A stretch of DNA of 64,000 nucleotides from Granulicoccus phenolivorans DSM 17626 = NBRC 107789 = JCM 15570 (GTDB taxonomy: Bacteria > Actinomycetota > Actinomycetes > Propionibacteriales > Propionibacteriaceae). Below the pieces are notes generated by a model. That model did not search any database. It saw nothing but the letters and a program-made list of their open reading frames with translations, and had not been told where the DNA came from. Made by a program: the position numbers and the translations under genes. Position 1 is the stretch's first letter. Each line of letters begins with the position of its first letter. Below, in pieces: positions 24,401 to 26,622 of this stretch. The stretch covers positions 1 through 64,000 of the forward strand of contig NZ_AUHH01000015.1 of the NCBI RefSeq assembly GCF_000423085.1, given 5' to 3'.

Positions 24401-26149
<1,749 letters not shown>

Positions 26150-26200
26150 TCAATCTTCCTCGGGTCGTGGACGGTTTTCCATTCGGGCCGGTGGCGCGAG

Positions 26201-26250
26201 AAAACTCCGCAGCGAGGAAGCCTGAGCCCTATTAGTGGGCCTCGCTGCGG
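26201..26250 (-). terminator. Attenuator terminator in the leuA leader
   Basis: Read on the minus strand, an 11-bp perfect stem CCGCAGCGAGG (26250-26240) / CCTCGCTGCGG (26217-26207) is followed by AGTTTTCT (26206-26199). The left arm lies within the final codons of the leader peptide, so a ribosome stalled at the Leu codons or stopped at the tandem stops would alter folding. This is the classical attenuation layout. Confidence 0.85.
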
Positions 26251-26279
26251 CAACCGAGGAGGATGAACACCTGTGCCAC
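26232..26279 (-). CDS. Leucine leader peptide (LeuL-type)
   Basis: 15 aa from the GTG at 26279 (MAQVFILLGCRSEAH), or 12 aa from a GTG at 26270. Two adjacent CTC leucine codons are preceded by ATC, and the ORF ends in tandem stops TAA TAG. The 7-nt distance from the -10 box to GTG 26279 indicates a leaderless mRNA with the peptide starting at or near nucleotide 1. Low charged leucyl-tRNA would stall the ribosome and favour read-through into leuA. Confidence 0.82.
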   Translation of the reverse strand: MAQVFILLGCRSEAH

Positions 26280-26286
26280 GTCGGTG

Positions 26287-26315
26287 ACAATAGCACGCAT
26301 TCCCCGGGGTGCACA
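26287..26315 (-). promoter_or_regulatory. leuL-leuA promoter
   Basis: On the minus strand, -35 TGTGCA (26315-26310), a 17-bp spacer and -10 TATTGT (26292-26287). The predicted start is close to 26279-26280, at the leader-peptide GTG. Confidence 0.65.
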
Positions 26316-26407
26316 GGGGCGGCGGGCACCGCCGGGTTGCCGATTGTGGGTCAGTCCACAGATCGAGGTCAGCCGAACCCGGCGAACCGGAGCCCGGGGC
26401 ACCAGTC

Positions 26408-26622
26408 GTCACCCCGGGCACGCGGCCGGGCACCGAGCGTCAGCGGGGGCATCGAGTGTCACCCCGGGTACGCGGCCAGCCGGTCACCGAGCGTCAGCGT
26501 GGGCGTCCAGCGTCAGCGGAGGCATTGAGCGTCACCCCGGGTACGCGGCCGGCCGGTCACCGAGCCCCCGCGGGGGCATCAAGCGTCAGCGGGGGCATCG
26601 AGCGTCACCCCGGGGTGGGCAG
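26408..26622. repeat. Complex degenerate repeat block
   Basis: The motif GTCACCCCGGG(C/T)ACGCGGCC occurs at 26408, 26459 and 26531, and a truncated form at 26604. Between the copies are shorter GCGTCAGCG(G/T)GGGC(A/G)TC units. The repeats produce long spurious frames in several phases. The 26316-26960 interval contains no gene I can support; besides this block and the inverted repeat at 26823-26911 nothing was recognised in it. Confidence 0.8.

Follow-up and report, generated by a model that had tools for sequence, protein, structure and literature searches.

A leader preceding leuA in Granulicoccus phenolivorans and the Propionibacteriaceae: a probable leaderless attenuator of translation in which leucine codons mask a Shine-Dalgarno sequence

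INTRODUCTION

The closest described relative of the locus analysed here is the LEU element of actinobacteria (Seliverstov 2005, PMC1262725). In the accessible text of that paper the element lies directly upstream of leuA, contains a leader ORF with a run of leucine codons and includes a pseudoknot together with a base stem in which the leucine codons pair with the Shine-Dalgarno (SD) sequence of leuA. Apart from one transposase, the same text describes no location for the element other than upstream of leuA, and it states that P. acnes is without it. Mutants of the leuA leader of S. coelicolor are said there to have some effect that is not consistent with classical attenuation; later in the text it is stated that mutations of the Leu codons do not influence regulation and a binding protein is favoured, orthologs of ML1624, which has a helicase domain, being suggested for this role. 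An experimental dissection of the LEU element was not found in the literature searched, which covers few papers under subscription and neither the mutant study of S. coelicolor nor Neshat 2014.

Evidence for short ORFs at comparable positions exists in other actinobacteria. LeuL1, which precedes leuA in Streptomyces lividans TK24, was found to be leaderless by RNA-seq, and the available part of its description reports no typical Rho-independent terminator (PMC8079986). Ribosome profiling of M. abscessus revealed an uORF before leuA (PMC4974804); in C. diphtheriae a start site could be assigned neither to leuA nor to its leader (PMC5784534). In mycobacteria, leaderless polycysteine ORFs are described as mediating attenuation of translation (Canestrari 2020, as reported in PMC9031893 and PMC13236596): a short leaderless ORF carries sensor codons and the translation of the next gene is attenuated. 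Transcriptional control has been put forward in corynebacteria, where leuL of C. glutamicum is treated as a transcriptional attenuator (PMC8709942, PMC6892785) and where the uORF upstream of ilvBNC, which also encodes a leader peptide for branched-chain amino acids, is described with an antiterminator in its region P1 and an intrinsic-terminator-like region P2, i.e. as a case of classical transcription attenuation (PMC11109978).

RESULTS

Anatomy of the leuA leader

The window (the whole stretch of 64 000 nt that was analysed) carries leuA on its minus strand (24401-26149), with a start at GTG 26149 or ATG 26146; the product scores 841.6 bits with TIGR00970 (cutoff 697.4) and is also above the cutoff of NF002991, identifying it as 2-isopropylmalate synthase. 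An initial annotation, which gave no strand, had proposed a leaderless leucine attenuator upstream of this gene. All of the pieces that it named are present on the minus strand, like every feature given below, in the order -10-like box, 7 nt, GTG ORF, TAA TAG, hairpin, AG, TTTT and then leuA. The -10-like box TATTGT (26287-26292) has TGC on its 5' side (26295-26293), as in an extended -10, and is followed by the 7-nt spacer CACCGAC (26286-26280) and by the GTG start codon of the leader (26279-26277). The leader ORF (26232-26279), which is likely leaderless, has 15 codons and reads VAQVFILLGCRSEAH; its putative regulatory Leu codons CTC CTC (26256-26261) and the tandem stops TAA TAG (26234-26229) are as had been annotated. 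The window also contains tandem-like repeats (periods 19, 54 and 73) at 26396-26614, upstream of the leader promoter.

The hairpin (stem A) is formed by a 5' arm, CCGCAGCGAGG (26240-26250), which is translated as the end of the leader ORF, and a 3' arm, CCTCGCTGCGG (26207-26217). All 11 pairs (11/11) can form around a 22-nt loop; the stem is followed by AGTTTTCT, in which TTTT (26201-26204) begins after two bases, and 57 nt separate it from the leuA GTG. Two further pairings, both overlooked in the initial annotation, were recognized. In the first (stem B), the hairpin loop (GGGCT .. GGC, 26220-26229; predicted duplex -14.7 kcal/mol) pairs with a downstream segment (GCC .. GGCCC, 26185-26195) to make a pseudoknot. 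In the second (P1), a segment consisting of the Leu codons, which are its core, and their neighbours (26251-26266) pairs with the SD region of leuA, CCGAGGAAG (26155-26163), with a predicted duplex energy of -16.7 kcal/mol; the SD motif GAGGA (26161-26157) then lies opposite the TCCTC of the Leu codons (26260-26256). The overall stability of the 130-nt leader is not exceptional when compared to shuffled sequences (z = -1.56, 12/200).

Distribution of the element

LeuA was found in 110 of the 117 genomes of the family (Propionibacteriaceae), and 102 upstream regions were used: two regions (G047, G030) reached a contig end, four (G101, G002, G085, G044) lacked the N-terminus of LeuA and two (G087, G076) were left out by choice, the N-terminus being present and the LeuA match short. 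The element precedes leuA in 100 of the 102 regions, representing 28 genus labels, whereas the accessible text of PMC1262725 has P. acnes, from this same family, without a LEU element. The two regions without it (L057 and L097, corresponding to G074 and G034) are apparent losses; the counts of family members given below refer to the other 100. In both of them leuA lies closely 3' of a reading frame ending ..LNRLGF, which resembles the C-terminus of Era. Comparison at the level of the genus could not be widened since the genus of the window consists of its own genome.

A covariance model was built from 48 sequences, window included (48 aligned out of 65 segments). Among genomes sampled from the class it detected the element in 189 of 197, and among those sampled from the phylum in 16 of 149; 12 of these 16 belong to the class (the genome of the window included) and, among the other 4, 3 are marginal (E 0.003-0.008). 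The window itself was matched with E = 2.1e-12, a value due in part to its presence among the sequences used to build the model, and elsewhere in the same genome the best match had E = 0.099. tblastn with LeuA indicated that 36 of the 38 class and phylum loci (L189-L226) carry leuA, the exceptions being L196, at a contig end, and L225, a leuB locus. Rfam release 15 gave no match in the window at the gathering score and, at E up to 5, only four weak sub-gathering matches to unrelated families. Judged by its sequence features, the window's element is a member of the published LEU element of actinobacteria (PMC1262725): it shares the position directly upstream of leuA, the leader ORF with a Leu run, the pseudoknot and the base stem between Leu codons and SD, this likeness being to the description in the accessible text of the paper. 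What sets the window's member apart is a run of just two Leu codons and a TTTT tail.

A leaderless start is most likely

When the reading phase was set by the hairpin, an ATG or GTG codon with TAnnnT 3-12 nt upstream was found in 97 of the 100 family members; the same search in the two other phases succeeded in 4/100 and 16/100, which argues that the leader start is more than a chance occurrence. The distance between TAnnnT and the start codon is narrowly distributed (6 nt, 29; 7 nt, 66; 8 nt, 3; 10 nt, 3; 12 nt, 1; some genomes were counted at two spacings) and, at a spacing of 6-8 nt, ATG accounts for 49 of the 97 starts and GTG for 48. An SD-like motif (AGGAG, GGAGG, GAGGA or AAGGA) was present 5-18 nt before the leader start in none of the 97 (0/97); one was present before the leuA start in 80/97. 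In sigma-70-type promoters, a -10 element only 6-8 nt away places the transcription start on the start codon or directly beside it. From this spacing and the lack of an SD we infer that the leader gene is most likely translated from a transcript beginning at its start codon, a reading strongly supported by the family comparison and in agreement with the leaderless start initially proposed. In Streptomyces, a rule requiring TAnnnT at 5-9 nt missed many loci.

The -10-like box 7 nt before the GTG is present and conserved; however, no good -35 hexamer was found in the window (the best, TGCACC, has 3 of 6 positions), and generic promoter and terminator scans of 25900-26600 detected nothing, a result which is not decisive for a GC-rich actinobacterium. 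The promoter call therefore rests on comparison. The literature searched yielded no transcript or reporter data for Granulicoccus phenolivorans.

Within the leaders, whose length varies from 12 to 28 codons (97 leaders; L024, which has no usable leader start, was excluded from these counts and from those of SD openness), runs of at least 2 Leu codons were found in 91/97 and runs of 3 or 4 in 82/97. In 93/97, a gap of 5 nt separates the last Leu codon from the hairpin. The stop codon begins 2-11 nt past the hairpin 5' arm in 95/100 members, overlaps the last base of this arm in 4/100 and lies far downstream in 1/100.

Stem A, the pseudoknot and P1 covary

The potential pairings were assessed by comparing the duplex energies of each genome's own segments to those of segments mixed across genera. 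Among the 28 genera of the family, P1 (z = -3.95), stem B (z = -3.88) and stem A (z = -2.80) all had lower energies than any of the mixed sets (0/300 permutations as low in each case), and three control pairings were null. The test was repeated on the class and phylum loci, of which 34 out of 38 were usable: again, stem A (z = -8.24, 0/400), stem B (z = -2.95, 0/400) and P1 (z = -2.33, 3/400) gave low values, and two control pairings were null. Of the 526 cells of stem A in the 48-sequence alignment, 98.7% are paired, and both-sided (compensatory) changes are seen in 4 of the stem's 11 pairs. P1 is illustrated by the pairs CTCCTTCGCTG with CCAGCGAAGGAA, CTCCTCACTC with TAGTGAGGAA and GCTCCTTGGTC with AGCCAAGGAGA. 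As judged by covariation, the sensor codons thus mask the SD of the gene that follows, a feature of leaderless translational attenuators of the polycysteine type.

The folding of alternative structures, which had been suggested as a check, gave a mixed answer. With the pseudoknot imposed, placing a ribosome on the Leu codons raised the predicted openness of the window's SD from 0.02 to 0.41. An increase was obtained in 87 of 99 genomes and, by genus, in 24 of 27; openness tends to go up when bases are masked, and these values are to be read for their direction only. When the pseudoknot was not imposed, the effect was weak: mean SD openness over the 27 genera was 0.17 for the free leader, 0.26 with a stalled ribosome and 0.16 with a ribosome at the stop codon, the stalled state being higher in 17/27 genera in each comparison; the corresponding values for the window were 0.02, 0.18 and 0.23. 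For the window, openness at the stop is no lower than in the stalled state, which counts against masking of the SD as the mode of control. Overall, the folding predictions lend modest support to an SD-masking mechanism.

Is the hairpin a terminator?

The initial annotation had called the 11-bp hairpin with its TTTT a terminator. The hairpin and the T residues do exist, and on this basis hairpin 26250-26207 plus TTTT might operate as a leucine-controlled intrinsic terminator in a scheme of classical transcription attenuation, the window having an 11-bp GC-rich stem directly followed by AGTTTTCT and the leuL precedent of C. glutamicum pointing in the same direction. The tail after stem A is moreover T-enriched in the family, with a mean of 2.86 T in 8 nt against a T background of 17%, and TTTT occurs in 12/100 members against 0.3% of background 8-mers. 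Some termination is therefore possible, although the enrichment could alternatively reflect an A/U-rich loop of the pseudoknot. However, a T run within 8 nt of the hairpin is not conserved: TTTT is found there in only those 12/100 family members, in 2/34 class loci and in 1/80 named loci, and the two nearest LeuA relatives of the window (L004 and L005) have AGTTTCGT and AGTTGCGT instead. The 5-nt gap between the Leu codons and the hairpin (93/97) leaves nothing to form an antiterminator between the sensor codons and the terminator. Furthermore, the hairpin 5' arm is translated, and since the stop codon lies past it, a ribosome finishing the leader peptide would block the hairpin, which is the wrong polarity for classical attenuation. 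Lastly, the candidate terminator and stem B together make up a pseudoknot that covaries. Thus, of the features that characterize trp-type attenuators, a leader with regulatory codons was found, and a conserved U tract and an antiterminator segment were not. We regard a classical attenuator as unlikely.

Further copies in the class

Two or more matches to the covariance model were counted by hand in 53 of the 197 class genomes. Twelve regions from 10 multi-match genomes (G123, G124, G146, G147, G164, G200, G210, G235, G264 and G280) were read, together with L225. LEU-like elements were located before leuB (L225, L227, L230, L231, L232 and L234), directly upstream of leuC (L229 and L238) and upstream of leuA or of a gene closely paralogous to it (L228, L233, L235, L236 and L237); leuB of L234 and leuC of L238 were named by family search, the other translations by eye from likeness. 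In the genome of the window, one strong element was found by the covariance model, at leuA, and visual inspection of the 330 nt preceding leuC and leuB revealed none.

A conserved small ORF of 20-41 codons lies between the LEU-like element and leuB in six class genomes (about 200-345 in gene orientation). Its products have a common end like ..Q(E/Q)(S/A)MDRRDxG.., and searches of Pfam and NCBIfam with four of the sequences gave no family that exceeded its cutoff.

DISCUSSION

The anatomy of the element, its conservation and the covariation of stem A, stem B and P1 make it likely that this LEU element is a leaderless translational attenuator that controls leuA by sequestering its SD. Transcription would begin on the leader GTG or no more than a base or two away from it. 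A ribosome would load on this 5' start codon without the help of an SD. When leucine is plentiful, it would pass the two Leu codons rapidly and reach the stop codon; the freed Leu codons could then pair with the leuA SD (TCCTC with GAGGA in P1), resulting in low translation of leuA. If charged Leu-tRNA is in short supply, the ribosome would stall on the Leu codons and, by covering them, prevent P1. Hairpin A and pseudoknot B would then fold as a compact spacer, the SD would be exposed and leuA translated. The Leu codons would act both as sensor and as anti-SD, and control would be mainly translational; the location of the transcription start, the stalling and the direction of the response are presumed parts of this scheme.

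Compared to the systems described previously, this scheme departs from the accessible text on the LEU element, in which the leader is not taken to be leaderless (PMC1262725). It agrees on this point with LeuL1 of S. lividans, whose leader has a different sequence, MRFGLLLLSCRGEGL, containing a run of four Leu (PMC8079986). The polycysteine ORFs of mycobacteria are a parallel for the mode of action; compared by description, they differ in sensing cysteine instead of leucine, and no pseudoknot is mentioned in the parts of the descriptions available (PMC9031893, PMC13236596). The ilvBNC uORF of Corynebacterium resembles the present case in encoding an actinobacterial leader peptide for branched-chain amino acids and differs by its classical transcriptional mechanism (PMC11109978).

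The published statements on S. coelicolor mutants (PMC1262725) count against SD masking. On the other hand, mutation of a Leu codon would remove the sensor and the mask at the same time, which would explain why the mutants did not fit classical attenuation. They have also been taken in favour of a regulatory protein that binds the element, the Leu codons having only a structural part, and the strong conservation of the structure fits this possibility as well. A purely structural role, however, needs neither an in-phase ORF, nor a fixed spacing to the -10, nor Leu runs of 3 or 4 codons, all of which are kept while leader length varies, so that we find control by a binding protein improbable. 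Least credible is control of the SD by competing pairing with the stem A 3' arm rather than with the Leu codons: the window duplex reaches -15.4 kcal/mol and the class and phylum test was positive (z = -2.45, 4/400 on 34 loci), but the family test was not (z = -1.08, 40/300 as low, 28 genera) and stalling at the Leu codons would, judging from the 5-nt spacing, leave most of stem A able to form.

Taken by itself, the leuA locus of the window is ordinary within the LEU-element picture. Beyond it, the chances seem somewhat better than even that SD masking by a leaderless leader operates throughout the class, with Leu codons of dual role that a partly translated pseudoknot keeps in register and with a dispersed leucine regulon comprising leuA and, in genomes other than that of the window, also leuC and leuB. 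The covariation data predict which base changes should break and which should restore control. The role of the LEU element, a puzzle since 2005, becomes directly testable in these terms, with a leaderless leader taken to mask the following SD by means of its sensor codons. If this is true, actinobacteria would use SD-masking leaderless leaders for leucine as they do for cysteine, and some genomes would do so on several leucine genes.
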